64,000 nucleotides of DNA from Myxococcota bacterium (GTDB taxonomy: Bacteria > Myxococcota_C > UBA6777): NCBI GenBank assembly GCA_023150835.1, contig JAKLKB010000006.1, positions 27,796-91,795 of the forward strand, written 5' to 3'. A model generated the notes under the pieces. That model did not search any database and was not told where the DNA came from. It saw only the letters and a program-made list of their open reading frames with translations. The translations under genes were made by a program, and so were the position numbers. Below are positions 3,677-48,847 of this stretch, one piece after another. Position 1 is the stretch's first letter. Each line of letters opens with the position of its first letter.

Positions 3677-4076
3677 CAACGCTTCCTTGGCTCGTGGTCT
3701 GTGAGCGATGGGTGGCCGTTCGTTGCGACACCCCATCCAACGGGCTTCTCGTGTGACCCTGTTTGGAGCGTCTCTTGTACCCACAATCTTCGACCACAAC
3801 AAGGGGGTATGTCCTGTTCGTGGAGGGTGGATTCGTTTCTTCGTCGTGCTGTTTGAAATGCCGCGAACACGGGGGGTTTCCTATCTATTGCTTTGTTGGG
3901 CCGTCGCGTGGTTCACAGCCAGCCCGCTGTTGATCCGCCAAGTGGCTCACAGCCAGCCCGCAGTTGATCCGCCAAGTGGCTCACGAAAGCCTCGATGTTC
4001 GGTCGCTTTGTTCACAGCCAGCCCGCAGTTGATCCGCCAAGTGGCTCACGAAAGCCTCGATGTTCGGTCGCTTTGT
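3677..4076. other. Intergenic region with a partial family 3 repeat
   Basis: No convincing gene. It holds a short minus-oriented fragment of dispersed repeat family 3 (about 3856-3880, CCGCGAACACGG) upstream of mccB, and then the 65-bp tandem array listed separately. Confidence 0.7.
3912..4076. repeat. 65-bp tandem repeat ending at the stop codon of the next gene
   Basis: Two complete 65-bp units start at 3947 and 4012, preceded by a ~34-bp partial unit from 3912. The next unit in phase would start at 4077, which is the first base of the minus-strand stop codon of the Cds1-like gene, and that gene end still resembles the unit start (TCACA..AGCCCG..TTG). The array therefore seems to have grown from the 3' end of the gene. 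Confidence 0.9.
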
Positions 4077-5168
4077 TCACAACAAGCCCGTTGCAACGAA
4101 GCGTTCAAGCTGCTCCCAAGGGACGCGCAGATCGAGCTTTTCTTGTTGCAGCCATTCATCGCTAAAGTACCGATCTTTGTAGCGATCGCCTGCATCGCAG
4201 ATCAATGTCACAACGCTGCCTGTTTGGCCTTCTTGGAGCATCTTGCTGATCAAACCAAATGCCGCAAAGACGTTCGTTCCCGTCGATGCGCCGACCTTTT
4301 TTCCGAGATAGCGTTCCAAAAAGCGCGTGGTTGCGATGCTTTGTTCGTCGGAGATCTGTACAGCATCGTGGATCACGTCGGGCAAAAAAGAAGGTTCAAC
4401 ACGCGGCCGCCCGATGCCTTCGATGCGCGAACTGGCGCACATCTTGAGATGTGGATCGCGTGTCTTGAAATACTCGTAAAACACCGACCGTTCTGGGTCT
4501 GCAAGAATAAGCTGTGTTTGGCCCCCGCACTCCAAGGAATAACGCAGATAACGACCGATCGTGGCGCTGGTTCCGCCCGTCCCTGCGCTCATGACGACAT
4601 AGGCAGGGGTTGGATAAGGCTCTTGCTTCATTTGATCGAAGATGCTTTGTGCGATGTTGTTGTTGCCCCGCCAATCGGTCGCTCGTTCGGCGTAAGTGAA
4701 CTGATCCATATAGTGGCCGTTGCGTGTGCGTGCGATCTCCTCGGCGGAGGCGTAGATCTCCGCTGGTGCGACCCGCTCACAACGCCCCCCCCAAAACTCG
4801 ATCTCTCGGACTTTTTGCGAGGCTGTTTTTTCGGGAATCACCGCGATAAAGGGCAATCCCAACAGCCGCGCAAAGTAGGCTTCCGAGATCGCCGTACTGC
4901 CCGAAGAAGATTCAACGATGGGCGTGCCTTCGCCGATCCAGCCGTTGCAGATCGCATACAAAAACAACGACCGCGCAAGTCGATGTTTGAGACTGCCTGT
5001 CGGATGCGTTGACTCGTCTTTGAGATAGAAATGGATATCGTGTTTTTGTAAGATCGGAAACATCGGCTTGAGCAGATGTGTATCCGAAGATCGCGTAAAA
5101 TCCGCATGGATCTGTTGGATCGCCCAACGCACCCAGTTGCTGCAATACTTGGCTTTTGAATGAGTCAT
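4077..5168 (-). CDS. PLP-dependent Cds1-like L-cysteine desulfhydrase / cysteine synthase family protein
   Basis: A 363-residue fold-type II PLP enzyme. The PLP lysine is K61 in HPTGSLKHRLA; ESSSGSTAISEAYFARLLG follows, and SAGTGGTSATIGRYLRY should bind the cofactor phosphate. The segment MDQFTYAERATDWRGNNNIA matches mycobacterial Cds1 (L-cysteine desulfhydrase) closely, as I remember that family, rather than CysK/CysM. Expected chemistry is cysteine breakdown to pyruvate, ammonia and sulfide, or beta-replacement. The start at 5168 is chosen for its upstream TTTTGGAG; an in-frame start at 5237 would translate the simple repeat CACGGAA and adds no domain. It stands alone, with repeat arrays on both sides. 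Confidence 0.85.
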   Translation of the reverse strand: MTHSKAKYCSNWVRWAIQQIHADFTRSSDTHLLKPMFPILQKHDIHFYLKDESTHPTGSLKHRLARSLFLYAICNGWIGEGTPIVESSSGSTAISEAYFARLLGLPFIAVIPEKTASQKVREIEFWGGRCERVAPAEIYASAEEIARTRNGHYMDQFTYAERATDWRGNNNIAQSIFDQMKQEPYPTPAYVVMSAGTGGTSATIGRYLRYSLECGGQTQLILADPERSVFYEYFKTRDPHLKMCASSRIEGIGRPRVEPSFLPDVIHDAVQISDEQSIATTRFLERYLGKKVGASTGTNVFAAFGLISKMLQEGQTGSVVTLICDAGDRYKDRYFSDEWLQQEKLDLRVPWEQLERFVATGLL

Positions 5169-5190
5169 CAGTTGCTCCAAAATACAAAAA

Positions 5191-5290
5191 GAGTCCACGG
5201 AAAGCACGGAAGGCACGGAAAAAGAGTCCGCGTACAACGACCAACGGGAGTTTCACGCTTCGTACAACGACCAACGGGAGTTTCACGCTT
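5191..5290. repeat. CACGGAA simple repeat and two 30-bp direct repeats
   Basis: At 5191-5232 there is a run of CACGGAAA/CACGGAAGG motifs between two GAGTCC boxes. Two identical 30-bp units follow (5231-5260 and 5261-5290). The CACGGAA run is the reverse complement of the TTCCGTG array at 6113-6163, so the two enclose the GxxExxY gene in inverted orientation. Confidence 0.85.
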
Positions 5291-5311
5291 CGTAAAGCAT
5301 GGACAACACTG

Positions 5312-5734
5312 TTAGAGAAGAAGGCGCTCGATGGTTGCTTTGGGATGGCATCCAAAATTGGCTAACAGGCCGACTTTCAGCCCTGTAGATTTCAGGTAGT
5401 TGAGCAGTTGTGCTTTATGTTCGCCGGTGGTTTGGCTGAGGGCTTTAATCTCCAAGATAACCGAATTGTAGCAAATGAAATCAGGCCGATAGTAGTGCTT
5501 CAATGGTTCGCCTTTGTAGGACAGTCGCAATTCGCTTTGTGCCGCGAAAGGGATGTTTGCTTTGGCGAATTCTTTTTCCAAGCACTCTTGATACACAGCT
5601 TCGAGAAATCCGCAACCCATCTCTCGGTACACCTCAAAGATCGCGCCTCGGATCGCGTAGGTTTCTCGTTCGTGGAGTATGGTTGTTGTTTTTGGATAGG
5701 TGGGAGGAAGGAATGTTGGATCGCTGGGGTTCAT
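5312..5734 (-). CDS. GxxExxY family protein (PD-(D/E)XK-like)
   Basis: A 140-residue protein with the naming motif G-F-L-E-A-V-Y (GCGFLEAVYQECLEKEF, about residues 41-57), then a core E-L-x-L-x-Y-K-G-x-x-L-x-x-Y-Y-R-P-D-F and I-L-E-I-K-A-L. The D...E-x-K arrangement resembles PD-(D/E)XK nucleases, and a C-terminal Q-L-L-N-Y-L-K-x-T-G is typical. GxxExxY proteins have no proven role and often occur as movable small genes. Length and motifs are complete, so the gene looks intact. It is flanked by inverted CACGGAA/TTCCGTG simple repeats, which may mark the boundaries of a mobile cassette. Confidence 0.88.
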   Translation of the reverse strand: MNPSDPTFLPPTYPKTTTILHERETYAIRGAIFEVYREMGCGFLEAVYQECLEKEFAKANIPFAAQSELRLSYKGEPLKHYYRPDFICYNSVILEIKALSQTTGEHKAQLLNYLKSTGLKVGLLANFGCHPKATIERLLL

Positions 5735-26996: not shown

Positions 26997-27671
26997 CTAC
27001 GGTTGTTTTGGAGGGGCCGTTTGTTGTTTTGGAGGGGAAGGCTGGAGGGTGGGAGGGGTGGTTTGTTGTTTTGGAGGGGAAGGCTGGAGGAAGGATTGGA
27101 GTTTTTGGACAAAGGCATCGAGTTCGATGGGCTTGTGGTGGTGGAGGTGTTGAAGTTGAAAGCGGCCTTTGGTGTTCCACGAGCCAGCGGCGATGTTGCG
27201 AGTATCGCGTAGGAGGAAGCGTTTTTGTGTTTTGGGATCTTCGAGGATGGCGAGTTTTCCGTAGGCCATGCCCATGACGTGAAAGTAGCGGGGGTTGTGT
27301 TGGCGTTCGAGGAAGACGAGGGTTTCTTCGCCGGCTTTGAAGCGAGCGGAGCCGGGGACATGGCTTCCGATGCTGTGGATGGCTCCGCCGACTTGGCGGA
27401 TATCGATCTCTTGTTGTTGGGGATCGCCTTTGAAGCGTTGGATGACGGCGATCTTGATGTAGGTGTAGATGCGGCGATCTTTGGCGTGCCATCGGGCGTT
27501 GACGCTGAGGACGCGGCCTTGGATGATGGTGTGTGCGCGTTGAGCCATCTGTTGATCGTCGAGTTTGACGATGATGGTGGCTTGTGTGAAGGGGGAGGCC
27601 AAGAAGAAGGCGGCCAAGCCCAACAAGATCGTAGAGAGCGGCTTCAAGATCGCGGAGAGCGACTTAGGCAT
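26997..27671 (-). CDS. Secreted protein of unknown function paired with a metalloprotease
   Basis: A 224-residue protein with a signal peptide (ILKPLSTILLGLAAFFLASPFTQA, cleavage near residue 32). The mature part (TIIVKLDDQQMAQRAHTIIQGRVLSVNA...) is a small beta-rich domain of about 110 residues, of a type I recall next to matrixin-like proteases in myxobacteria. The C-terminus is a low-complexity Pro/Gln/Lys tail with PSPPKQQT repeats, matched by a ~35-bp DNA repeat. The ATG at 27671 overlaps the stop of the upstream protease gene by eight bases and has AGGAG upstream, so the two are translationally coupled. A role in handling or inhibiting the protease is inference; no motif shows it. Confidence 0.75.
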   Translation of the reverse strand: MPKSLSAILKPLSTILLGLAAFFLASPFTQATIIVKLDDQQMAQRAHTIIQGRVLSVNARWHAKDRRIYTYIKIAVIQRFKGDPQQQEIDIRQVGGAIHSIGSHVPGSARFKAGEETLVFLERQHNPRYFHVMGMAYGKLAILEDPKTQKRFLLRDTRNIAAGSWNTKGRFQLQHLHHHKPIELDAFVQKLQSFLQPSPPKQQTTPPTLQPSPPKQQTAPPKQP

Positions 27672-29958
27672 AACGGGATCTCCTAGAGGTACGGGCGAGG
27701 ACAAAGAGGGCCAGTAAGAGCACCAGCCACGCCACAAAGGATGAGGATGACTCGCTATGTTCGCAACCGCAGCCGGCGCGTTTGGGTCGGCAGGGGTTAA
27801 CGCTGCAATCGCTTTGGGAGGCGGGCCAGCAGCCGAGGTTGATGTTGGGGAGTCCTTCGATGCAGAAGAAGCCGTCTCCGCAGCTTGCGGGAGTGGAGGG
27901 AAGGCAAGTGCGGCTACAGGTGCCTTTTCCGTCGAGAACGATGCAAGTGAGTCCGGGGACGCAACCTTCGTCGCCTGCGCAGACAAAGCCGAGGGTGCTG
28001 CGGCAGACGTTGTTGATGCACTCTTGGCCGGAGGGACAGGGGCCACGCCCACCGCAGTTGACTTCGGTGGCAGCGCAGGCGTTGTTGAGGCAGCGCAAGC
28101 CGGAGCCGCATTGGTTGTCGGCGGTGCAAGTTTTGGGGACGCAGCGGCCTTTTCCGCTAAAGATGCTGCAAGTCTCGGTTGGACCGCAAGTATTGTTGCA
28201 AGCGTCGATTTGTTTGCAGCGTTGTTCGATGCATTTTTGGGGGGAGATGCAATCGCTGTCTTGGGAGCAGGTTTGGGCGCTGCCTGTCGTGCAGATACCG
28301 CCGAGGCAGATCTCGCCGCCGGCGCATTGTTGGTTGCTTGCGCAGGGGGTTCCGGGTTGGCAGAGGCTGTTGGCGCAGCGGTGGCGTGGGGGGCATTCGG
28401 CATCGGAGCCGCCGCATTCTTTGCGACAGAATCCGAGTTCGCAGCGGTGTTTGGGTTCGCAGTCGGTGTTGGCGGTACAAGGCGAGCAGCGCTCGTTTTT
28501 GCAGACGCGTCCGGTGGGGCATTCTGCGGCGCTTTTGCAGGGTTCGGTGCCGGTTTCTTGGGTACAAAGGCCGACGGTGTTGTTGGTGTTGGCGACGGCG
28601 ATACAACGATACCCTGAAGGGCAAGCACCGTTGGCTCCGGGGCGACAGAGGAAGCGGCATTTTTTCTCTTGGGTGTTGCAGCCGAGTTCGTATTCACAGG
28701 GGGCTTGATCGCTACAATCCATGCCTTCTTTTCCGCCATTGTTGGGGGGGATGCAAAAGCCTTTGGTGTAGTTGGTGCCTTCGGCGGCGATGCAGCGGAG
28801 GTTGCCTTCGCAGCGGGCAGCGAGTGGGTCGCAAGGAGTGCGGCAGCGGTCGCCATCGCCTGCGTTGATACATTGGAGGTTTCCGCAGCATCGTTGTTGG
28901 GCGGTACAAGCGAGTCCTTCGTTGGTGCAGGCTTGATCGTTGACGCAATTTCCGCTGATACATTTGAACGGATCGAGGCAATCGTTGTTGCTGCGGCAGC
29001 AAGGATAGGGAGTTGCGCCCGCGCAGGTGTTGAGGGAGGGTGTGCAGTTTCGCCCGAGGATGACTTGGGCATTGTTGGGATCGGCGATGGGGGTGCAGTT
29101 GTAGCCGGCGGGGCAGACGCCGCCGTTGGAACAGTCGAAGCCACAGCGGTTTCCGTCGGTGAGGCCGATACAGAAATTTTTGGAGCCGAGGCAATCGTCG
29201 TTGGTGTTGCAGCTTTTGCAGACTTGTTGATATGGAGCGCAACGCTTGGTGTATCGGCCATTATAGCAAACAAGGTCAGGGCCGCTGGTTTCGGCATCTT
29301 TGCATGCGGCTTGGGTGGGGTACAGATCGCGGATACCTTGGCGGTCATCATCGGTGAGCTGGCGTTTGCTGGTTTCGCCCGGGTTGGCGGAGGCGAACAT
29401 CGTGGCGGTGACGACTTGGGAGTGCCACAGGCCCAAGACATGGCCGAGTTCGTGGGTGAGGATAGCTTGGAGGTCGTATTTGTCGTTGGCACCGATACCG
29501 ATCGGGACGCCTTGGGTGTTCCAGTCGTTCATCGAGATATCGGCGTCAAGCATCTCGCCGTCGCGGGTGTTGTAGTAGGTTTCGGTGCGGGCAAGTTCGA
29601 TCTCACCGAACTTCCAGTTGGCTTTTTGGTTGATGAATTTGATCACCAGCTTTCCGTCGTAGCTGGCGGGTAGTTCGGTGTTTTCGACGGGAGCGAGTTT
29701 GAGCAGTTGTGGGATCGCACCAGAGATACCGTTCCAAGCGGCCACAGAGCTTGATAGTGCGCTTTGGATATCGGCAAACGGGATCTGCACACTGCCCGTT
29801 TTATCGAGGTTGATGGTGAGGGGGAATTTCCCGCGTTTCCAATAGCGTTCGCGGTTGTTCTCATCGATTGGGAAAAGCTCGTAAGCCCATACCCGCGAAA
29901 CCGAGAACAACATCACAAACCAACACAAAACACATACGATACGTTGCCATTTTCCCAT
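27664..29958 (-). CDS. Secreted matrixin-like metalloprotease with Cys-rich repeats and MYXO-CTERM tail
   Basis: A 764-residue protein. After a signal peptide (VCVLCWFVMLFSVSRVWA) comes a metzincin catalytic domain with the zinc motif HELGHVLGLWH (residues 169-179) and a Met-turn candidate (TMFASANPG, M186), as in matrixins (M10A). The stretch from ~210 to ~725 is a chain of Cys-rich Dickkopf/EB-like modules (C-x-x-x-x-x-C, C-x-G-G-x-C). The last 35 residues (GCGCEHSESSSS, hydrophobic helix, R-x-S-R-R) look like MYXO-CTERM, a tail thought to be processed for surface sorting in myxobacteria. The start at 29958 is chosen because the frame's earlier start is TTG. The next gene overlaps by eight bases. 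Substrate unknown. Confidence 0.9.
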   Translation of the reverse strand: MGKWQRIVCVLCWFVMLFSVSRVWAYELFPIDENNRERYWKRGKFPLTINLDKTGSVQIPFADIQSALSSSVAAWNGISGAIPQLLKLAPVENTELPASYDGKLVIKFINQKANWKFGEIELARTETYYNTRDGEMLDADISMNDWNTQGVPIGIGANDKYDLQAILTHELGHVLGLWHSQVVTATMFASANPGETSKRQLTDDDRQGIRDLYPTQAACKDAETSGPDLVCYNGRYTKRCAPYQQVCKSCNTNDDCLGSKNFCIGLTDGNRCGFDCSNGGVCPAGYNCTPIADPNNAQVILGRNCTPSLNTCAGATPYPCCRSNNDCLDPFKCISGNCVNDQACTNEGLACTAQQRCCGNLQCINAGDGDRCRTPCDPLAARCEGNLRCIAAEGTNYTKGFCIPPNNGGKEGMDCSDQAPCEYELGCNTQEKKCRFLCRPGANGACPSGYRCIAVANTNNTVGLCTQETGTEPCKSAAECPTGRVCKNERCSPCTANTDCEPKHRCELGFCRKECGGSDAECPPRHRCANSLCQPGTPCASNQQCAGGEICLGGICTTGSAQTCSQDSDCISPQKCIEQRCKQIDACNNTCGPTETCSIFSGKGRCVPKTCTADNQCGSGLRCLNNACAATEVNCGGRGPCPSGQECINNVCRSTLGFVCAGDEGCVPGLTCIVLDGKGTCSRTCLPSTPASCGDGFFCIEGLPNINLGCWPASQSDCSVNPCRPKRAGCGCEHSESSSSFVAWLVLLLALFVLARTSRRSRYA

Positions 29959-30305
29959 GATCTCAGCCCTTTTCGTCAGACGTTTCAAGCGTCGCTTATA
30001 CTAAAGGCTTCCGAGCAGACTGGCAAGAGATCCGTTTGTGGGGGGCGGCTATTGGCCATCTCGGCGGGCAGATCGATTTTGTAGAAGGGAGGAGCATTGT
30101 CGGGGGGGTAGCGAGGATACGGAGGGATGGGGATTTGTCGGTATGCAAGGGAAGGTGTGCAGAAAACGCCCCCGTGTTCGCGGAGGTTCAAGCGTTGCGG
30201 TTGTTGGTTTGAAAGACGTCTGTTCGCCGCGTCGATACGGGGTCAAGGGAGCCGCGCTCCCTTGTGGGGTGTGGGGCAAAGCCCCAAAAAACGCGAATCG
30301 AAGGG
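29959..30305. other. Intergenic region with family 3 repeat
   Basis: This 347-bp gap separates the metalloprotease start from the stop of the OmpA-fused lipoprotein. Its right-hand part is a full family 3 repeat (30168-30291). The left-hand ~200 bp should hold the protease promoter, but no clear boxes are visible. Confidence 0.6.
30168..30291 (+). repeat. Dispersed repeat family 3 copy
   Basis: The copy starts CCCCGTGTTCGCGG, then TTCAAGCG, GGTTTGAAAGACG and TACGGGGTCAAGGG, and closes with the stems TCAAGGGAGC/GCTCCCTTG and GGGGCAAAGCCCC. It ends 14 bp after the stop codon of the minus-strand gene at 30306. Confidence 0.9.
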
Positions 30306-32846
30306 CTATTGGGAGACGATATTGAATTCGACGCGGCGGTTTTTGGCGCGATTTTGTTTGTTGGTGTTGGGGACGAGGGGGCGTTTGGGGCCGAAGCCTT
30401 CGGCATCAAGGCGGCCTTCTTCGACGCCTTTTTTGACGAGGTATCGTCGGACGGATTTGGCGCGGCGGTCAGAGAGGTTGGTGTTGTAAGCGGGATTTCC
30501 GCTGCTATCGGTGTGTCCTTCGATACGGACGCGGATGGTGGGGCGGCTTTTGAGGACGGCGACGACTTGATCGAGGACGCCAAAGGACTTGCGTTGGATG
30601 GTGTCGCGGTTGAGGGCAAAGAAGATCTTTTGGAGGATCTCGATCTTTTTGTCGGTGACTTGGACGAGGATGATCTTGGGGCAACCGTCGCGCTCTTTGA
30701 CGCCCGGGACGAAGGGACATTTGTCGAGGCGGTCGACGATGCCGTCACCATCGGAGTCTTTGTCGGGGCAGCCTTGGTTTTCGGGGATGCCTTTGACTTT
30801 GGGACACTTGTCTTTTTCGTCGGGGATACCATCGCCATCTTCGTCGCCCCCGGGACATCCGGGTTTCATGGTCGACGTCACGAGCAAGGTGTTTTCTGCG
30901 CCGTCGATCTGGATAAAGAAGCCTTGCATCTTTTTGTATTCGTCGTTGCTGAGGATGTCTTTGCGGAAGTGGTATTCTGCTTTGAAGACGATGTTGAGGC
31001 CGCTGGCGCCGGTGGTGAGTTGGTAGCGCAGGAGGGCATCGTCGATTTGAAAAGGCTTCGGTAGTTCGAGGGCTTTGAGACCTTGGATGTGGATCTCGTC
31101 GATGTAATGTCCGCTGGTTTTCCACATGAAGGGGTGGTGTTGGCGCTTGGTGGCGAGATGGCGTTGGTGGTCGGAGTGGAAGTCGAAGTGGACGTAGATC
31201 TCGCAGTCGGTGACGCGGTTTTTGTAGAATTCAGCGGTGAAGTCGGCTTCGATGCGAGGTGTTTTGGATTTTACCTCGGTGATGCGGGCTTCTTGGACTT
31301 TGATCGATTGGAGAAGTTTTTTGGTGGCGAGATAACCGAGCAGAGTTTGCGCCCACTGATTTTTTCCGCTCGCGGTATCAAGGCTGTGATCTTTGATGCG
31401 TTGATCGAGATCGGCGCGGTGATGTCCGCGCAGGAGCATCACCATCTTGCCTTTGATCTTGCCGTCAGGGGTCGCGTTCAACGTGATCTCGCGCTGTGTC
31501 CTATTTTCGGTGGGGGCTTGGAGAGGGGTTTGGATCAGTCGGCCATCGTCGATGGGAAGGGCGGAGGCGTTTTGATCTTCCCAGCTTAGGTCGCCGAAGT
31601 GGCTATCGGTTTTTGCGGTATCAAGGAAGATTCCGCCGTCGATGCTTGGGATGTGGTTGAGGGTGTGTTGAAAGACCGCAGGGGTGGGCAGTTGCGGATC
31701 GACATCGCCTTTGTCGCGGGTACGTACGCGCACGATCTGGCTGGGGATGCCTGCGGCTTCGAGCATGGCTTTGTACAGTGCGGCTTTTGCGCGATCGTCG
31801 CCTTGTTGTTGTTTGAGGGTTTGTTCGGCGGGTGCGACGCTCCATTCCATCATCTGGGGATCGCGGGTGATGGTGCGGACTTTGTCGTGCAAATAGTCGT
31901 AGATGCGCTGGGCTTTTTCGCGGTTGTCGCTTGCGCCTTGGGTGATCTTGTCGGTCTTGTCTTTGATGGCGGGTGTGGACACGGCGCTGTTTTGGAACAT
32001 CTCTTTTTCAAAGCTTGCCACTTCCGCCCACGAAGACGACGGATAATTGCGCCCTTGGTAGCCGAAGGACTTGGGGGCTAACTCGATGCGTGCGGTTAAG
32101 GTGTGGGCGTTGGGTTGACCGGCTTCGGTTTCGAGGGCAGGGACTTTTCGAGCGGACCAGACGTGGATGGTGTGGCTGGGACGGTCGGGATCATTTTCGG
32201 TTCGGTAGCTGATCAGCGATGCGGGGAAGTCTTGACCGCCGTAGACACGGGCATTGAAGGCGAAGTCGCGAGGGGCTGAAAAGCGAAACTCGGTTTCTTG
32301 GACGGGTCGGTCTTTTTGGACATAAAAGGTGTAGTGCAAAAAGGTGTTTGTTTCGAACTTGGCGAGATATTCGTGGATGGCACCCGGGGTGATGTTGTCC
32401 ATGAACCACAAGCTGTACATGGCGTTGCTTTCGCTTGTGGGGGACCAGTCGACGGGCCAATCGTAGAAGCCACGCGACGGCGTGATCCAGCCGTTGGGTC
32501 GAACGATCCGCGCATAGATCTCTTTGAGCGGGCGGCGGGGAGTGTAGATCACGGCCCCTTGGGTGATGTTGCCGGATTGTGTGGTTTTCCATGTCAGGGA
32601 TTGGATCTGGACGTGTTCGGTTTCTGTAAAGCGCATCCGCTCGGCATCTTGGAGGACGAGGGTTTGCTTGATCATCGGATAATGCTCGCCGTCCTTGCTG
32701 AGGGTGGCGGCTTGGGGCGGGAGCGTGGGCTTGAGCGGTCCGAATTCTTTGGGGGTGGGGATGATGCCAAAGAAGGGTACACATCCCGAGAGGTTGAGAG
32801 CGATCACCGCGACAAGCGGCAACAGGCGGAGAGAACGATTGAACAT
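30306..32846 (-). CDS. DUF3857/transglutaminase-like lipoprotein fused to TSP3-OmpA domain
   Basis: An 846-residue lipoprotein (lipobox L-N-L-S-G-C, Cys22). Residues ~50-260 look like a DUF3857-type beta-sandwich. Residues ~305-425 align with a transglutaminase-like domain, but the expected G-D-C-K-D-K is G-D-D-R-A-K (349-354), so the catalytic Cys is Asp; His394 and Asp409 remain. After a DUF3858-like region come thrombospondin type-3 repeats (DEDGDGIPDEKDKCP, DSDGDGIVDRLDKCP) and an OmpA domain with the peptidoglycan-binding pattern N-x-x-L-S-x-x-R-A-x-x-V. It should sit in the outer membrane leaflet and bind peptidoglycan. The upstream related gene is 27 bp away, so they form an operon. 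The fusion is unusual. Confidence 0.82.
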   Translation of the reverse strand: MFNRSLRLLPLVAVIALNLSGCVPFFGIIPTPKEFGPLKPTLPPQAATLSKDGEHYPMIKQTLVLQDAERMRFTETEHVQIQSLTWKTTQSGNITQGAVIYTPRRPLKEIYARIVRPNGWITPSRGFYDWPVDWSPTSESNAMYSLWFMDNITPGAIHEYLAKFETNTFLHYTFYVQKDRPVQETEFRFSAPRDFAFNARVYGGQDFPASLISYRTENDPDRPSHTIHVWSARKVPALETEAGQPNAHTLTARIELAPKSFGYQGRNYPSSSWAEVASFEKEMFQNSAVSTPAIKDKTDKITQGASDNREKAQRIYDYLHDKVRTITRDPQMMEWSVAPAEQTLKQQQGDDRAKAALYKAMLEAAGIPSQIVRVRTRDKGDVDPQLPTPAVFQHTLNHIPSIDGGIFLDTAKTDSHFGDLSWEDQNASALPIDDGRLIQTPLQAPTENRTQREITLNATPDGKIKGKMVMLLRGHHRADLDQRIKDHSLDTASGKNQWAQTLLGYLATKKLLQSIKVQEARITEVKSKTPRIEADFTAEFYKNRVTDCEIYVHFDFHSDHQRHLATKRQHHPFMWKTSGHYIDEIHIQGLKALELPKPFQIDDALLRYQLTTGASGLNIVFKAEYHFRKDILSNDEYKKMQGFFIQIDGAENTLLVTSTMKPGCPGGDEDGDGIPDEKDKCPKVKGIPENQGCPDKDSDGDGIVDRLDKCPFVPGVKERDGCPKIILVQVTDKKIEILQKIFFALNRDTIQRKSFGVLDQVVAVLKSRPTIRVRIEGHTDSSGNPAYNTNLSDRRAKSVRRYLVKKGVEEGRLDAEGFGPKRPLVPNTNKQNRAKNRRVEFNIVSQ

Positions 32847-32873
32847 GACGCGTGTTCCTTTTCGCGGGATGGG

Positions 32874-35534
32874 TTACTTGTGAGCGATCTGGAAGGTGAT
32901 CGATTTGGCCGTTTTTTGCCAGAAGGTGCGGAAGGCTTGATACCGTTCGGCGGGGAGTTCGCGTTGGCGAAACTCGATGTGCGTGTGTTTGGAGAGCACG
33001 TTGCTTTCGATCTTATGCGAAGATTTGAGGTAGACGACACCATCAAACGATTTGTCATAGCTGTGTTCTTTGGCTTTGGCGGACTTGCGAAGGTTGAGAC
33101 TGAGCTTGAACGACGGCGGAAAACGCAGCGTGATCTTGGTTTCTTTGAGGTAGGGGTATTCAAAAAACAGCTTCACATCGCGGTTGGGGGCTGTAAAGGT
33201 GTAAGAGGGGAGTGTGCCCGGGGTTTTGTAGAGCATGACTTTTTGGCTGTGGGGAAAGCAGTGATGGGCTTTGAATTTGTAGCGGTAGGTGACGGGCTGC
33301 GAGAGGTCTTGGATGTTGAGTTCGGGTAGCACAAGATCGGTGATCTCGAACTGTTGGCCGCAAACTTGGCGAAGCCATCCGCCGCGTTGTTTGCGCCAAG
33401 TTTCCCAGTCACGGGGTTGGGCAAACAGAAGCTGTCGGCGGACGTTGGCGGCAAGATGCCCCGTCAGCTTGATCTCGTAACTGCCCGTCAGTGTGCCCTC
33501 TGCGTCCACTTGCATATCAAAGGTGCGGAAGTCTTGGGTGTAGGTGTAGGGTTGGGAAGGCGTCTTAAAGAAGCGGCCACCGCCGTAGTCGATGATGAAG
33601 GCTTCGACGCCTTCGGCGCGTGGATTGACGGTGTTGTAGGGATCGACGATCCCTGCGGGGCTCAAGAGGCGGCCTTGGTTGACGGTGCGCTCTTTTCCGG
33701 CAGGAGCAAACTTCGCGGCATCAGCGGCACGTTCGGCGTGTAAGCCACGCCAAGGGCCTTCGGATTCTTCAGGGACGAAAACAGCCAACCCACCGAAGAC
33801 ATCGCGGTCAGGGAGACCTTTGCGGTAGTCGTAGTATCCGTTGGGGACGAGGGCTGCGTAGGCGCGGATGCCAAGCGAACGCAACATGACGATGAAAAGC
33901 ATATTGCTAACGTAGGGGTTTCCTGTGCGCATCTGATAGCTGCGCAAGAGGTCTTCGCCCGAAGATAGGCCAAAGTTGATCGGTGCAAGGCCGATCGCAC
34001 CTTGGACATAGAGGTTTTGGCGGAGATGTTCGTAGATGACTTTGATCTTTTCTTCGCGGCTGGTGGCGTTGCGGGTGAGATCGCGGGCGATCTTGGGGAG
34101 GCCATTTTGGTTGAGTTCTTGGTCTTCGTCCATCTGGAAGTTGCGGTTAAATCCGCCGCGATCGTCTTGGAAGGGCCACATCGCACGAGTATACCAAGCG
34201 ATCACGTTTTTCCATTCGGCGCGGATATCTTGGTATTCGGCGAGGCGGGTATCCAACATCCGCACGATCTTGATGGTGGCTTGCGGGGGTTTGCAATAAC
34301 GGGGCGGTAGCGCCGAGGTTTTGCACATGGCGTTGAGGCCCATCCGACCTTGGCGAGTCACGCCCGGGACGTTGCGCATGTAGACGTCGATCATGCGGGA
34401 ATCGCGGTCGTGGCTCACACGCACAGCGTCTCCCCCAAAGGAGCGATCGGCTTCGTCGGCGACGAGTGCTGCCCGAATGGCTTGTTCGACAGCGAGGTCG
34501 AGTTGGAGCTTGTCGCTGACGGGCGCTTTCGGTGTTTCGAGCGGTTTGTTTGGATCGATCGTGCCTTTGACTTTCTCGGCGCTCTCGGGAGCCGAGACTT
34601 GCAGGCGCTGGATCACGGCTTGGCGCTCGGCGGCGCTCATCATCGGAAACACATTCAGCGCAGCGATGCGTTTGTCCTCGGGCAGTCGGTCGAAAACGTT
34701 CACCATCAAGGTCTTTTGCTTGACGTTAAGACCTTTGAGCCAAGCCTGTGCAGCCGCTTTTTTGTCGGCAGGGAACTGTTCGAGCAGCAGGTCGATCTCG
34801 GCCATCACGCTTGCGATGCGTTGGGTGGCTTCGCGGATCTGAAGCGTTTGCAAGACAAACAAGGGATCAAGATCGATCCGCATCTCAAGGTTTTCAGCGT
34901 AGTGATAGCGCATGTGTGCGCGGCGCACAGGGATCTCTTGTAAAAGCTCGATTCGCACGCCCGTCAATCCGAAGAAAAAGCGGTCGAATTGCATACTCAG
35001 GTCGTATTCCCACATCACATCCAGCACACAACCCACTTCGATGCCGGGCAGATGCGCATGAAAGACTTGGTTTTCTTGCACCGTCTCGACCGCGTCTGTT
35101 CCGCGACTATAGAACTTGACGCGGAGATCTTTGAGGACGCGATCGTCGTATTTCAACACTTTGTTGTTCGGGCAGGTGGCGCGTACGTTGAACTTTTGCA
35201 GACGATTGAATGGACTCCACACCCCGAATCCACCCGGAAGATACTTAAAGGAAGCGTACTTGAGGCCGCCATGTTTGTTGATGCGGATGCGCTTGTTCAT
35301 GCGCCAAAGAGTGGTGCGTTGGGATTGTCCGACTTGTCCCCATCGATGGTAGTATTCGGCTTCCATCCACAAGATCTCGGCATCTGGCATCGTTTGCTTG
35401 GAGCCGAGGGGTTGAAGATCTTTTTGTGTGACGGGTTGAAAGCCCTTAAAACTTGGAATGCAGCCGCTCGCGAGCAAGCCGAACAGCACAAAAGCTGGCC
35501 ATTGCCCCGATACGCGGTGTTGTCTCAAACGCAT
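32874..35534 (-). CDS. DUF3857/transglutaminase-like lipoprotein
   Basis: An 886-residue lipoprotein (lipobox L-L-A-S-G-C, Cys25). It follows the DUF3857, transglutaminase-like, DUF3858 order seen in the next gene but has no OmpA part. In the transglutaminase-like region the expected G-D-C-K-D-K is R-T-G-N-P-Y-V-S (about residue 535), so the nucleophilic Cys is again missing, although the following M-L-R-S-L-G-I-R-A-Y-A-A-L-V helix and strand are conserved. An extra helical segment (residues ~240-330, LLLEQFPADKKAAAQAWL...) interrupts the first half. It probably acts by binding rather than catalysis. It is the first gene of a two-gene operon with the OmpA-fused paralogue, and lies downstream of an OmpA barrel gene. 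Confidence 0.8.
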   Translation of the reverse strand: MRLRQHRVSGQWPAFVLFGLLASGCIPSFKGFQPVTQKDLQPLGSKQTMPDAEILWMEAEYYHRWGQVGQSQRTTLWRMNKRIRINKHGGLKYASFKYLPGGFGVWSPFNRLQKFNVRATCPNNKVLKYDDRVLKDLRVKFYSRGTDAVETVQENQVFHAHLPGIEVGCVLDVMWEYDLSMQFDRFFFGLTGVRIELLQEIPVRRAHMRYHYAENLEMRIDLDPLFVLQTLQIREATQRIASVMAEIDLLLEQFPADKKAAAQAWLKGLNVKQKTLMVNVFDRLPEDKRIAALNVFPMMSAAERQAVIQRLQVSAPESAEKVKGTIDPNKPLETPKAPVSDKLQLDLAVEQAIRAALVADEADRSFGGDAVRVSHDRDSRMIDVYMRNVPGVTRQGRMGLNAMCKTSALPPRYCKPPQATIKIVRMLDTRLAEYQDIRAEWKNVIAWYTRAMWPFQDDRGGFNRNFQMDEDQELNQNGLPKIARDLTRNATSREEKIKVIYEHLRQNLYVQGAIGLAPINFGLSSGEDLLRSYQMRTGNPYVSNMLFIVMLRSLGIRAYAALVPNGYYDYRKGLPDRDVFGGLAVFVPEESEGPWRGLHAERAADAAKFAPAGKERTVNQGRLLSPAGIVDPYNTVNPRAEGVEAFIIDYGGGRFFKTPSQPYTYTQDFRTFDMQVDAEGTLTGSYEIKLTGHLAANVRRQLLFAQPRDWETWRKQRGGWLRQVCGQQFEITDLVLPELNIQDLSQPVTYRYKFKAHHCFPHSQKVMLYKTPGTLPSYTFTAPNRDVKLFFEYPYLKETKITLRFPPSFKLSLNLRKSAKAKEHSYDKSFDGVVYLKSSHKIESNVLSKHTHIEFRQRELPAERYQAFRTFWQKTAKSITFQIAHK

Positions 35535-35808: not shown

Positions 35809-37737
35809 TTAGGGGGTGTTGCTGCGGTTTTCGATGCCGGTGGCTTGGTCTTTGTTGATGATGTTGAATTCGACGCGGCGGTTGGTGGCGCGATTTTGTT
35901 TGGTGTCGTTGGCGACGATGGGTTTATCGGGTCCGAAACCTTTGGCTTCGAGGCGGCCTTCATCGATACCTTTTTTGATCAAGTACTTGCGAACGGATTT
36001 GGCGCGGCGATCAGAGAGGCCAACGTTGTAGGCACGACGACCACGGTCATCGGTGTGTCCTTCGATACGGACGCGGAGTTCGGGACGGCTTTTGAGGACG
36101 GAGACGACTTGATCGAGGACGCCAAAGGACTTGCGTTGGATGGTGTCGCGGTTGAAGGCAAAGAAGATCTTTTGGAGGATCTCGATCTTGTCTTTGGTGA
36201 CTTTGACGAGGACGACTTTGGGGCAACCTTGGCGCTCTTTGACGCCCGGGACTTCGGGGCATTTGTCGAGGCGGTCGACGATGCCGTCACCATCGGAGTC
36301 TTTGTCGGGACAGCCTTGGTTTTCTTTGGGGCCGGGCTGATCGGGGCATTTGTCTTCGTTGTCTTTGAGGCCATCGCCGTCTTTGTCGCCCCAAGGACAA
36401 CCTTGGTTTTCTTTGGGTCCGGCTTGATCGGGACATTTGTCTTCGTTGTCTTTGACACCGTCGTTGTCTTTGTCACCCCAAGGGCAGCCTTCGTTTTCTT
36501 TGGGGCCGAACTGCGTGGGGCATTTGTCGACGTTGTCGGTCAGCCCGTCGCCATCGGTGTCAGGCCAAGGGCAGCCCTTGTTTTCTTTGGGGCCGGGTTT
36601 GTCGGGGCATTTGTCAAGGCGATCGACGATGCCATCGCCATCTTTGTCGGTGTCGGGGCATCCGTCATTTTCGCGAGGTCCGGGTTGTGTGGGGCAACGG
36701 TCGTCTTTGTCGAGGATGCCGTCGCCATCGGTATCACGGACTTTGGGAGACCAGACTACGCCGAAGAACACGCGGAAAAGAGGCGAGCCGTATCCCGAAG
36801 TGGGAAAGGGGACACCGATGCCGATCTCAAGGGCGAGATCAGGCTGGCTGAGGGGATAGATGCGTGCGCCGAGATAGGCATCCAGAGGGACTTTTTCGCC
36901 CGAAAAGTCGCGTTCTTGAAAGGCGATGGCTCCCGCGATCTCGCCGATGATATCGAGGCGATCTTTGAGTGCGCTCAAGCGAACGCCCAAGCCATAGCGG
37001 AGTTCGTGTTCGAGTTCGAGGTTGAGGAAGTAAGAGCGGGGCATATAGCGGTAGCCGATGTTGAGGCCGATATGAGCGATGCCGACTTGGACGCTGAGCA
37101 TGACGTCAGCATCGAAGCTCACGCTGTTTTCGCCGCCGAGTTTGTCGGGTGTTGCGAGACTTGAGGGGATACCGAGGGCGAGGCGAAAAGCGAGGTTGAC
37201 GTAATGTTTGTCTTGGCGGAGGGCTTGGGCTTTGAGGCCGAGTTTGATATCGCCAAAGGCAAAGCCGCTGAGATCGCGGCCAGCAGTACCAGCAAACAGT
37301 GCGGCGTTGTTGGGGACGCTGCCGTCTTGGTAGATCGAAAGGGGGATGGTGAGGTACACATCCAACCAGTCCAAGATCCCAAAGCCCCCCATGATATCGG
37401 CCCCGACTTGATGGTTGAGGATGCCCGTGCTATCGCGGCTTCCGTCGGCGCGGGGAGTTCCGCGCAAGACCAGCGGGTTGAGGGCGTAGTTGAGGTAGAT
37501 GCCGGCCATGTAGTTCATGCGACCGAGGGTGATTCCGGATTGGGTGTGGAACATCCCGTTGATATCGCCCCAAGGACGGAATTGTTGTAGCTGGAACGAG
37601 GTGTCGTAGGTCCGACTGGTGGTTTGCGCTTGGACGGGAGAGGTTAGCCACGCGCTGCATAAGAACAGAGCAGACAAGAGCCATCCAGCGCGGGTTCGCG
37701 TTTTTCCGCGTTGGGGGGACAAAGAACGAAACAGCAT
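35809..37737 (-). CDS. OmpA-family outer membrane protein with thrombospondin type-3 repeats
   Basis: A 642-residue protein with a signal peptide (WLLSALFLCSAWLTSPVQA), an eight-to-ten strand beta-barrel-like region (residues ~40-325, alternating aromatic strands such as HIGLNIGYRYMPRSYFLNL), six or seven thrombospondin type-3 calcium-binding repeats (D-x-D-G-D-G-x-x-D-x-x-D-x-C-P), and a C-terminal OmpA domain (FAFNRDTIQ..., LSDRRAKSVRKYL, NRRVEFNI) that binds peptidoglycan. It should link the outer membrane to the cell wall. ATG 37737 is chosen because AAGGAG lies nine bases upstream; the earlier start is a TTG overlapping the spacing. Its TSP3-OmpA DNA is nearly identical in long stretches to that of the lipoprotein gene at 30306-32846. 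Confidence 0.9.
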   Translation of the reverse strand: MLFRSLSPQRGKTRTRAGWLLSALFLCSAWLTSPVQAQTTSRTYDTSFQLQQFRPWGDINGMFHTQSGITLGRMNYMAGIYLNYALNPLVLRGTPRADGSRDSTGILNHQVGADIMGGFGILDWLDVYLTIPLSIYQDGSVPNNAALFAGTAGRDLSGFAFGDIKLGLKAQALRQDKHYVNLAFRLALGIPSSLATPDKLGGENSVSFDADVMLSVQVGIAHIGLNIGYRYMPRSYFLNLELEHELRYGLGVRLSALKDRLDIIGEIAGAIAFQERDFSGEKVPLDAYLGARIYPLSQPDLALEIGIGVPFPTSGYGSPLFRVFFGVVWSPKVRDTDGDGILDKDDRCPTQPGPRENDGCPDTDKDGDGIVDRLDKCPDKPGPKENKGCPWPDTDGDGLTDNVDKCPTQFGPKENEGCPWGDKDNDGVKDNEDKCPDQAGPKENQGCPWGDKDGDGLKDNEDKCPDQPGPKENQGCPDKDSDGDGIVDRLDKCPEVPGVKERQGCPKVVLVKVTKDKIEILQKIFFAFNRDTIQRKSFGVLDQVVSVLKSRPELRVRIEGHTDDRGRRAYNVGLSDRRAKSVRKYLIKKGIDEGRLEAKGFGPDKPIVANDTKQNRATNRRVEFNIINKDQATGIENRSNTP

Positions 37738-38135
37738 GATCAATCACTCCTTCATGTTGGGGGGCGTTTTCTTTTCGGAGGGGTCGGGCGCTGTGCGGTG
37801 CGTTGTGACCCCATGATGCGACTTGGACTCAGGGGGTTGGGTCTCTTCCGAAAAGATCAAAAAGGATGCCTCAATTGTTGTGATGCAAAAATATCGTTGT
37901 GACGAGGGAGTCCAAGAATCACCAAAGAATTGCAGAGAACCTTGCGCAACGCAAGTTTCTGTTGGGCGAATGGGGCGTTTTTCGTGCGATCGGTGCGCGT
38001 GTTGGGATGCGATCGGCTGGGGATGGTTTTGTTTCGGGTGGATTTTTTGTGTCGTGGTGTGTGGTGGCTTTGCGTCGCTGGCCGTCTCGGTATGTGTCTC
38101 AAAAAGAGAGCTTGCCTATTTCTGTCAGAAGAGTG

Positions 38136-44701: not shown

Positions 44702-47700
44702 TCAGGGCGCAAAGATCTCGGGAAGGCGGAAGCGTGGTGGTTTTTGGGGCGGGGTTGTGGTGGTCGGTTTGGGCCGTTGGACGGGTGGATACGGGCGTGC
44801 GCGAGGTGTGGAGGGATGGGTGGTTTCTGTGCGGATCGTTGGGGGTGGAGAGGGGCGCTTGGGAGCGGATGGTTCGGTGGGATCGTTGGGCAGGGGTGGG
44901 ATCTCAGGCAAGAGGATATCGTCTTCGTCTGGACGCGATGAGGTTTCACGGGGCGAAGCATCGGGTGTTGTGGAGGGCGAAGCATCGGGCGTTGTGGAGG
45001 GCGAAGCATCGGGTGTTGTGGAGGGTGTGGAGGTTCCGGCATCAGAGGGAGAAGCGAGAGGTGCGGTGCCGCCGTCTGTGGGGGAGGATGTGGAGGCGGA
45101 AGGACCGAGGGCAGGGGTTGGTTTGGAGGCTTCTTCTTTGGCTTTGCGTTCGCTGTAGTCTTTCCATTCGCTGAGGAGGTCGAAGAGGATGCGGCAGGCT
45201 TGAGAGGAAGAGAGCGTCCAAGGCTGGTGTCCGCGTAGGAAGGCGGGTTTGAGGCGGAGGACTTCGGCGTTGCTTTGTTGGGCTTGGGTTTGGAGGGATT
45301 GGATACGGGCGGATATCTCGGTGGTTTGGCGGCTCCATTGTTCTTGTTCGAGGATGGCGGTTTGGTATTCTTGGAGACGTTGTTGGTAGCGGGCGTTGGT
45401 TTGGGCGATCGCGTTGCGCAAGGTTTCGATCTGCTTGCGTTGGTGGGGGGAGGCTTGTTCAAGGGAGGGGAGGGATCGTTGTTGTTGTTCGAGGGTGCGC
45501 TTTCTTTGGGTGAGGATGCGGATCTTGCGTTGGGTGAGGGTGACGCGATGGCCGGCGTTTCTGCGTTTGGCGGCGAGGCTTTTGCGTTGTTTTTGGAGGA
45601 CCTCGATCTGTTTTTCGGATTCGTTGTGTTGTTTTCGGGCTTGGAAGAAGCGTTTGCCGATCTGTTTGTGTTGTTGGATTTGTTGTTCGAGGACGCGGGC
45701 TTGTTCTTCGTATCGGGTGGCGCGTTGGAGAGCGAGGCGTGCGGTGCGGGAGCCTTCGGTGGCGCGTTGGTAACGTTTGAGCCAGAGCTGGTTGAGGCGT
45801 TCGGCGAGGCGTTTTTTTTGGGTGAAGGTGGGGCGGATGCGAAAGGTCTTGAGGGGATCATTTTTGGGGGTGGAGAGGGTGACGGCTCCTGTGAGATGGC
45901 CGAGAAAGCCGATGCAGCTAACGCCGCGAGTGCTTTGAACGGTGCCTGTTTTTGCGCCTGCTTGTTCGAGGATCTTTGCGCCGTAGCGTTTGATCAGGGC
46001 CTGTCCAGCGCCGCTTGCGGTGCCTTTGCGGTCGCTTTGCAACACACCACTCATGCGTTTTCGAACGGAGGCGACGACTTGTTCAGGGAGAGGGGAGGGG
46101 AAGAGTGCGGGTTTTCCGGGGATATGGATATCTTTTTCGCGCTCGACGCGGTAGATCAAAGCAGGGCGGATGACTTTTCCTGAGGCGATAAACGAAGCGA
46201 TGGCGGCGAGTTGTCGGGTGTCGGTGTCGCTGACACCAAGGGTCATGGTCATGACGGGGACGAGTCCACTGCGCTTGCGATCGAAACCTGCGATCTCTTC
46301 GGCAAGCCAAGCGATATAGCGCAGGCCGATCTCCATCCGAAGCTCACGCACCCAGCCGATCTCTTCGAGAGAGAGGGGGCCTTGGAATTTTTGCTCGAAG
46401 AGCTTTTTCTTTTCTTGGAAGGTGCGTTGGATCTTTGGGCTGGCGGGGAAGATCCCGTCGGGTTCGGTGTCGAGGAATTCGGTGAGTTGCGCGGTGGTGA
46501 CAGGAGGTTCAGAAGGTGCGGTGGGATGGGGTTTTTGTGCGTTTGGCGTTTGGGAGATAGGAGCGGGAGCGATCGGTTGGGGGCGTGCTTCGGGTGAGAG
46601 TTCGGAGAGGATCTCGTCTACGGAGCGCTTTTTTTTGCGTTGTTCTTCGGCTTGTTTTTTCTTGATCTCTTCGGCGTCAAGGGTGTTTTGATGGAGGGAG
46701 GCTTCGGCAAGAAGGGCGTGGACGGTGGCTGCTTTGGCGGCTTCAAAGATCGCATTTTCGCGTAGGTCTTTGAAATAGTTCATGTATCCGAAGTCACGGA
46801 CGAACATTTTGCGCATCTCGACGGGATCTTTGTTGAGCTTTTCGACGGCAAGGCGGGCTTCTTCGGGGGACATCTTCTTTTTGTCTTCGAGGAGGTGGCG
46901 CAAGCCGCGTTCAAAGATCGCCGACCACTCGGTGGATTGGAGCATCCAAGTCCAGCGAAGCGAAAGGAAGACGTAGCCGATGTTGGCGGAGATGGCGAGA
47001 GCTTGGTCTTTTTTGACAAAGGGTGGCATCTTGTGGCTGTTGCGCACCCAATGGCCTTGGTTGCTTTTCCACGGATGGTACACAAACCTCCGTTGATTGA
47101 GCGTTTTGCGTCCACGGTTGATCAAGGGGAGTTCGTCAGGCCAATGGTGGGCGATCAGCGAAGTCAGGACTTTGAAGACAGAGCCAAAGACGGGCTTTTG
47201 TGCGAGGGCCATATCGACATGCCCGCTGCCACCGTATTGAGAGGCGATCTCGCCTGTGTTGGCGTCCACCAATGTATAAGCCAGTTGGAGGTCATCGATC
47301 TGCTCGCGGAAAGGGGCGTATCCTTGTTCGGCGACAGAGATCAGGCCGCGTTGACCGTCTTTTCCGACGGTGAGTTCTCGGTCGTAGTAAAGTTGGATGC
47401 GTGCGCCGTTTCGCCAGTCTTGGATATCGGCAGGCATGGATTTTTCGAGCCATTGGCGGATATGGAGATCGTGCATCTGCCATTCGTGGGAAACGGCCTT
47501 GAGGCGTCCGAGACCGTTTTTGAAGGTGGGCAATTCTTTGGGGACTTGGATGCCCATGCTTCGCAGTCGTGCTTTGATCTGCTCGATGCGTTTGCTCCAG
47601 ACTTCATACACCTTGCTACGACGGGTGCTTTCACACTTTCCATTGCGACAGGCTTCGAGATACCAAGGGTTAAAACGTCCCGGGTTGGGCAACGAGGCTG

Positions 47701-48847
47701 CGGCCACAACCGCTTGGTTCCAATCGAACTCACGGGGATCTTGGACATCGAAATAATAGAGGCCGAGTCGGTGGAGTCCGTAGTTGTCGCCTTGACCGGC
47801 CCAAAGCGTCGCGAGGTAGATCGCCATCATCTCGCGTGGGCTGAAGGCTTGGCACATGATGTAAGAGCGCGGCATCTCGTCGAACAGCTTGCCGCTGACG
47901 GTGCGAAATAGGCCGATGCCTTGGCGCTTTTGACCAAAGTCGAGAAAGTTCTTGGCGGCTTGAAGGGCGGGGGTACTGCCGCCGACTTTTCGGCGTTGCT
48001 TGACGAGGTAGTAGGGGACACGCAAAAAGGCTTCGATCGAAAAAGGCTCGCACTTGAGGCTTTCGCCATCAGGAAGATAACGCCACCACCACGCGGGCTG
48101 ATCAACTCGTCCTTCGGCCACGCCTACGGCTTGACTGATCTTCCAGTCGAGCAGCTTGGGATCGTTGTAGTGTTGGTTCCAGTCGCTTTGGGTTCGGTTG
48201 AAAAGCCCCAAGGGACGGTTGTCTCGATCATGTAGAGTCGTGATCTGGATCGAACGCAAAAGTTTGTTGCGTTCCATCACTTCGGCGCGCTTGGTGGGGG
48301 TGACATAATGCCGATGCCACCAATAGATCCCTCCAAGAAAGTTAAACAACATTGAGAGTACAAAGCCCGTCCCCAAGAGGCTCAGCACTGCGATGCGTGC
48401 GATCCATCGCTCGGCAAAGCCATAACGGATGCGCCCGCCCAGTTCTGCACGCAAAAGCCACGTGATCAAAGTAAGCATCAAAGCGTATACACCGAGCAGT
48501 CCGATCGAAACCAACACAAGCGTCTTCGACCACATCACTTTGGGCGGATACAGCAAGAAACCGATACTGCCAAGCAAGACCAGCCCGCTCGATACAAGCG
48601 CCCGACGTTGTAAGCGATCGTGCTGGTAACGCGACTCTGCGATGCTATGCTGGATGCGATCATAAAGCCGCAAAGACAGCCACAACAAGAACGCAGCTTC
48701 GACTCCCAAGATCGCTCCAAACAACAACGCGATATCTTCTGGAAATTGCAGCAGCACAAACAAAGCTCCCGCGCCACCGCCCACAGCGAATAGCACCAAC
48801 AATAACCCGATCCATCTTTTTCGTTTGCTTGAGGTTTTTGTGCTCAT
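44702..48847 (-). CDS. Unusually large class A penicillin-binding protein (GT51 plus transpeptidase)
   Basis: A 1381-residue protein. The first ~180 residues hold about five hydrophobic helices, where class A PBPs normally have one. A GT51-like domain follows: E245 (GVAEGR) and E324 (DEMPRS) align with the catalytic Glu residues of PBP1b, and GGSTPALQAAKNFL and YLATLWAGQGDN fit its other blocks. The transpeptidase motifs are S556-V-F-K, S620-A-N and K966-T-G-T, with a ~190-residue insert (Glu/Lys-rich, then Pro-rich) between the last two. Residues ~1010-1210 are coiled coil and the tail is Pro/Thr/Ser rich with TPDASPST repeats. Expected role is peptidoglycan polymerisation and cross-linking. 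GT51 blocks are divergent, so glycosyltransferase activity is likely but not certain. Confidence 0.85.
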   Translation of the reverse strand: MSTKTSSKRKRWIGLLLVLFAVGGGAGALFVLLQFPEDIALLFGAILGVEAAFLLWLSLRLYDRIQHSIAESRYQHDRLQRRALVSSGLVLLGSIGFLLYPPKVMWSKTLVLVSIGLLGVYALMLTLITWLLRAELGGRIRYGFAERWIARIAVLSLLGTGFVLSMLFNFLGGIYWWHRHYVTPTKRAEVMERNKLLRSIQITTLHDRDNRPLGLFNRTQSDWNQHYNDPKLLDWKISQAVGVAEGRVDQPAWWWRYLPDGESLKCEPFSIEAFLRVPYYLVKQRRKVGGSTPALQAAKNFLDFGQKRQGIGLFRTVSGKLFDEMPRSYIMCQAFSPREMMAIYLATLWAGQGDNYGLHRLGLYYFDVQDPREFDWNQAVVAAASLPNPGRFNPWYLEACRNGKCESTRRSKVYEVWSKRIEQIKARLRSMGIQVPKELPTFKNGLGRLKAVSHEWQMHDLHIRQWLEKSMPADIQDWRNGARIQLYYDRELTVGKDGQRGLISVAEQGYAPFREQIDDLQLAYTLVDANTGEIASQYGGSGHVDMALAQKPVFGSVFKVLTSLIAHHWPDELPLINRGRKTLNQRRFVYHPWKSNQGHWVRNSHKMPPFVKKDQALAISANIGYVFLSLRWTWMLQSTEWSAIFERGLRHLLEDKKKMSPEEARLAVEKLNKDPVEMRKMFVRDFGYMNYFKDLRENAIFEAAKAATVHALLAEASLHQNTLDAEEIKKKQAEEQRKKKRSVDEILSELSPEARPQPIAPAPISQTPNAQKPHPTAPSEPPVTTAQLTEFLDTEPDGIFPASPKIQRTFQEKKKLFEQKFQGPLSLEEIGWVRELRMEIGLRYIAWLAEEIAGFDRKRSGLVPVMTMTLGVSDTDTRQLAAIASFIASGKVIRPALIYRVEREKDIHIPGKPALFPSPLPEQVVASVRKRMSGVLQSDRKGTASGAGQALIKRYGAKILEQAGAKTGTVQSTRGVSCIGFLGHLTGAVTLSTPKNDPLKTFRIRPTFTQKKRLAERLNQLWLKRYQRATEGSRTARLALQRATRYEEQARVLEQQIQQHKQIGKRFFQARKQHNESEKQIEVLQKQRKSLAAKRRNAGHRVTLTQRKIRILTQRKRTLEQQQRSLPSLEQASPHQRKQIETLRNAIAQTNARYQQRLQEYQTAILEQEQWSRQTTEISARIQSLQTQAQQSNAEVLRLKPAFLRGHQPWTLSSSQACRILFDLLSEWKDYSERKAKEEASKPTPALGPSASTSSPTDGGTAPLASPSDAGTSTPSTTPDASPSTTPDASPSTTPDASPRETSSRPDEDDILLPEIPPLPNDPTEPSAPKRPSPPPTIRTETTHPSTPRARPYPPVQRPKPTTTTPPQKPPRFRLPEIFAP

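Follow-up and report, generated by a model that had tools for sequence, protein, structure and literature searches.

The closest described relatives of the two genes analyzed here, which we call A and B, are the DUF3857/Transglut_core proteins (PF12969 and PF01841), which resemble them in domain order and profile match. The DUF3857 proteins are common in bacteria and practically unstudied, with one passing mention in the open-access papers searched. PDB 3KD4 is the only solved structure found by the profiles; its sequence at the catalytic Cys position is YGTPLEIA, so that, like B, it is without the Cys and looks like a dead-type member. Its annotation is that of a putative protease, and no pair has been described for it, whereas A additionally has thrombospondin type 3 (TSP3) and OmpA parts.

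The transglutaminase-like cysteine proteases LapG and HvyA likewise use a periplasmic transglutaminase fold and act at the cell surface, and HvyA requires C192, H226, and D241 (PMC4241560). However, LapG and HvyA belong to a different family, are single genes, and are active, while A and B lack the Cys. In the trypanosome enzyme-prozyme pairs (AdoMetDC and deoxyhypusine synthase), a dead paralogue activates a live enzyme, according to two reports (PMC5201418 and PMC3663545). These pairs join a live and a dead paralogue, as do the tandem pairs surveyed below, for which a partnership is presumed. On the other hand, the enzyme-prozyme pairs have unrelated folds, are eukaryotic, and are not envelope proteins. 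The transglutaminase-fold pseudoenzymes EPB42, menin, Rad4, and FBXO21 bind or scaffold without catalysis (PMC10318531); they belong to the same superfamily as A and B, but they are eukaryotic and do not stand in tandem with a live partner. A search of the literature, covering open-licence papers, found no description of tandem live/dead pairs.

The window, the whole stretch of 64,000 nucleotides analyzed here, comes from a Myxococcota genome of 7.6 Mb in 239 contigs. The open reading frames of A and B were confirmed at the coordinates below, which refer to the window.

30306..32846, minus strand: gene A, an 846-aa lipoprotein with a marginally matched DUF3857 domain, a transglutaminase-like core, a beta domain, TSP3 repeats, and an OmpA domain.
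30306..30863, minus strand: residues 662-846 of A, comprising the TSP3 repeats and the OmpA module of the peptidoglycan-binding type, from profile matches.
32874..35534, minus strand: gene B, an 886-aa lipoprotein, a transglutaminase-like pseudoenzyme and putative ancestral dead partner.
34440..34814, minus strand: insert in B of about 125 residues (residues 241-365), found in this genus only, from the alignment.

B comes first in the direction of transcription, and 27 bases separate it from A. Each N-terminus has a signal-like sequence and a lipobox (LSGC22 in A and ASGC25 in B). A matched Transglut_core with 46.7 bits (cut-off of 23), while B, with 23.2 bits, matched only at the cut-off; the domain was found in all five members of both the A alignment and the B alignment (E <= 1). 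For DUF3857, A scored 23.0 to 24.7 bits around the cut-off of 24.6, with E values down to 1e-21 among its orthologues, and one of the five B orthologues matched. The OmpA C-terminal family profile matched A with 79.3 bits (cut-off of 27.2), from which peptidoglycan binding is predicted, and TSP3 repeats were matched as well. An hhalign comparison showed A and B to be homologous (99%). AlphaFold2 models of both proteins, built from an alignment of the window and sister-genome sequences only, had a pLDDT of about 31.

The catalytic positions were then located in the two genes.

31794..31796, minus strand: D351 codon (GAT) of A, at the catalytic Cys position of its relatives (GDCKAK to GDDRAK).
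31665..31667, minus strand: His394 codon of A, at the catalytic His position, kept.
31620..31622, minus strand: Asp409 codon of A, at the catalytic Asp position, kept.
33915..33917, minus strand: P540 codon of B, at the Cys position, where its relatives have Ser, Ser, or Thr.

The Cys-His-Asp positions read D-H-D in A and P-G-S in B, so that neither protein has an intact triad. This confirmed the initial annotation, which had described two adjacent transglutaminase-like lipoproteins lacking the catalytic Cys, with GDDRAK in A and GNPYVS in B, and with the His and the Asp largely kept in A; in B, the His position is Gly and the Asp position is Ser. A different Cys at the active site, which the initial annotation had named as evidence against its reading, was looked for in both A and B, and no substitute Cys was found within the domain of either. 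The closest other Cys residues of A, C548 in the C-terminal beta domain far away or those of the TSP3 repeats, are not a displaced active-site Cys. Other readable transglutaminase-like proteins of the same genome retain GHCEYF or GVCRH.

With His394 and Asp409 kept and the site reading G-D-D, A could still be an enzyme that uses Asp351, another residue, or a metal instead of the Cys. We consider this very unlikely, since other active-site residues typical of intact members have changed along with the Cys: the H/Q at position -16 is now A, the N before the His is Q, and the T after the Asp is A. These changes also indicate that the loss of the Cys was not one stray codon. In addition, we know of no enzyme of the transglutaminase/papain fold with Asp as its nucleophile.

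The window's genome was compared with four others from its taxonomic family: the MAG Myxococcota bacterium KLAP109, which belongs to its own genus, and G002, G003, and G004, which do not. The A and B genes of the sister MAG are both 96% identical to those of the window and carry the same substitutions, so that A reads GDDRAK in both genomes of the genus. However, the A orthologues of G002, G003, and G004 all have GDCKAK with the His and the Asp, that is, the full triad; homologues with an intact triad are what the initial annotation had named as evidence against its reading. The Cys of B is missing in all five family genomes. In the three genomes from outside the genus, that position of B is occupied by Ser (two genomes) or Thr (one), the His is lost, and the Asp is retained; unlike these orthologues, B of this genus also lacks the Asp and carries the insert of about 125 residues.

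Two separate losses of the Cys, as first supposed, are thus borne out, one in A within this genus and one in B across the family. As read from the alignments, A is a secondarily inactivated enzyme whose Cys was lost on the branch to this genus only, and B is an old pseudoenzyme that has been without the Cys since before the family diverged. The opposite history, with three regains of the Cys in A, would be far less likely, since A-like genes outside the family also have intact triads as a rule. We also asked whether another DUF3857 enzyme in the two genomes of the genus could have replaced A; none was found, as each genome has a single DUF3857 match, gene A itself.

The dN/dS ratio between the two species of the genus was 0.075 for A (0.063 for the core and 0.058 for the OmpA part) and 0.070 for B, compared with 0.044 to 0.046 for the neighboring urocanase, matrixin, and OmpA genes. 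Since this two-species comparison falls entirely after the Cys loss in A, a ratio of about 0.07 indicates that A and B are constrained proteins and not decaying genes. Both are under strong purifying selection, which leaves unspecified which function is kept. The pseudoenzyme pair proposed at the outset is therefore real in this genus, but the family of A is not inherently dead. Because both genomes are fragmented MAGs, one might suspect that the sequence was misread or misassembled, or that the genes are decaying. The chance of this is negligible: both open reading frames are full length and under the constraint just described, the change from a Cys codon to GAT in A requires two substitutions, and the second MAG has it too, so that D351 is not a single sequencing error.

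We then searched 386 genomes from across the bacteria for DUF3857 and found it in 100 of them, with many matches about 2 kb apart. Eighty regions were taken by the position of the DUF3857 match and not by motif, and the three catalytic columns were read with a profile iterated from intact A genes, a pair member being called intact when the Cys and the His were both present. The regions contained 45 tandem pairs from 34 genomes and 27 taxonomic families, which are not independent: their dead members cluster in a small number of deep groups, and independent origins number fewer than 45. Of these, 37 pairs were intact-dead, 7 were dead-intact, none was intact-intact, and 1 was dead-dead, so that 44 of the 45 had exactly one intact member. 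This one-intact, one-dead rule was suggested by the first pairs and then confirmed by a later set. It is seen in G003 and G004 and not in the window's genus, which supplied the sole dead-dead pair, a state represented by only two closely related and fragmented MAGs. The dead member of one pair (L132) keeps the Cys and lacks the His. Of 30 unpaired genes for which both flanks were available, 25 were intact and 5 were dead.

When the catalytic columns were left out of the alignment, the trees placed intact and dead members in separate deep groups, with 8 changes of state compared with 41.7 in shuffles. A mixture-model tree of 48 rows gave 6 intact/dead changes compared with 16.1. In both trees, A of the window's genus grouped with its intact orthologues. 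One origin of all dead members was neither established nor rejected (AU p = 0.27), and the deeper forks are uncertain because of long branches. FastTree placed B together with other dead-first partners; this placement was dropped, as the mixture-model tree did not hold it.

The members of a pair are tightly packed, with a median stop-to-start gap of about 2 nt and twelve overlaps of 1 to 14 nt (with mechanically assigned ORF starts). In four pairs from three taxonomic families (L096, L145, L146, and L147), the intact and dead modules are fused in one open reading frame of about 1300 aa. This packing and these fusions suggest that the ancestral unit was likely an enzyme and a dead paralogue acting jointly in the envelope, and they are consistent with a dead partner that may support the live one.

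Our main reading, to which we assign a probability of roughly 0.6, is that A and B belong to an envelope unit of an enzyme and its dead paralogue and that in this genus the unit has been retained as a noncatalytic binding complex. A and B would be its two halves, one a cysteine enzyme of the transglutaminase-like kind and the other a paralogue without catalytic activity, with the dead partner normally holding, positioning, or activating the live one, as in the enzyme-prozyme pairs. In this genus, A and B would presumably form a complex that no longer cuts or cross-links yet still binds what is presumed to be the former peptide or cell-wall substrate. The complex would be anchored at the outer membrane by its lipid anchors and tied to peptidoglycan through the OmpA domain of A. 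A wider reading, which we hold tentatively at somewhat under even odds, is that the tandem live/dead DUF3857 pairs form a two-subunit envelope enzyme that is widespread but has gone undescribed, and that was converted here into a peptidoglycan-anchored complex of two pseudoenzymes.

Alternatively, the tandem may date from an old duplication whose two products were retained for different functions and do not work as a single complex. In two pairs (L135 and L149), the members are indeed several hundred to about 1500 bases apart, and a few dead members occur without a partner. We nevertheless consider this alternative unlikely, given the near-zero spacing, the frequent overlaps, the several fusions, and the one-intact-one-dead arrangement in 44 of 45 pairs. 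In L149 (G380), a 463-aa secreted-type gene (4015-5403) separates the dead member from the intact one.

The near-exceptionless live/dead rule yields the testable hypothesis that the DUF3857 proteins are a heteromeric enzyme. If the enzyme-paralogue reading is right, the window's genus would amount to a natural experiment, having given up catalysis while retaining the complex, and it could separate the binding function from the catalytic one.

The pair was also compared with its surroundings, in which two further genes are relevant.

27664..29988, minus strand: matrixin-type metalloprotease with Cys-rich repeats and a MYXO-CTERM sorting signal, the family-conserved downstream neighbor of A.
35809..37743, minus strand: OmpA/TSP3 gene upstream of B, adjoining the pair in this genus only.

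Where the contigs show it, the order B, A, matrixin-type protease, small secreted protein, cmk, rpsA is conserved in the family; in G002, a contig break falls inside B, and the end of B lies at the start of the contig of A. Conservation of gene order thus extends to these genes but not to the upstream OmpA gene, which does not adjoin the pair in G002, G003, or G004. The suggestion that an adjacent OmpA barrel gene is part of the system was therefore not upheld, although A has an OmpA module of its own at its end.

The 3' OmpA module of A (30318-30782) and the 3' end of the 35809-37743 gene share 86% DNA identity over 469 bp, while A in this genus is otherwise far from its orthologues, which suggests that the module may have been exchanged between the two neighboring genes. 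An end that is important or recently exchanged would also fit a different reading, in which the transglutaminase-like region of A is a remnant, A is a lipoprotein tether working through its OmpA domain, and B is a structural partner; the active-site changes beyond the Cys point the same way. However, the core of A is about as constrained as the OmpA part, while a vestigial domain should relax, and we regard this reading as improbable though deserving some weight, and retain that of a noncatalytic binding complex. The A orthologue of G003 is without an OmpA module. Against the profile of the TraB outer membrane exchange protein (NF033763), the 35809-37743 gene scored 354 bits, below the cut-off of 700. 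Elsewhere in the window, a 1381-aa protein (44702-48847) gave a subthreshold match to a penicillin-binding transpeptidase, with 21.5 bits against a cut-off of 22.1.
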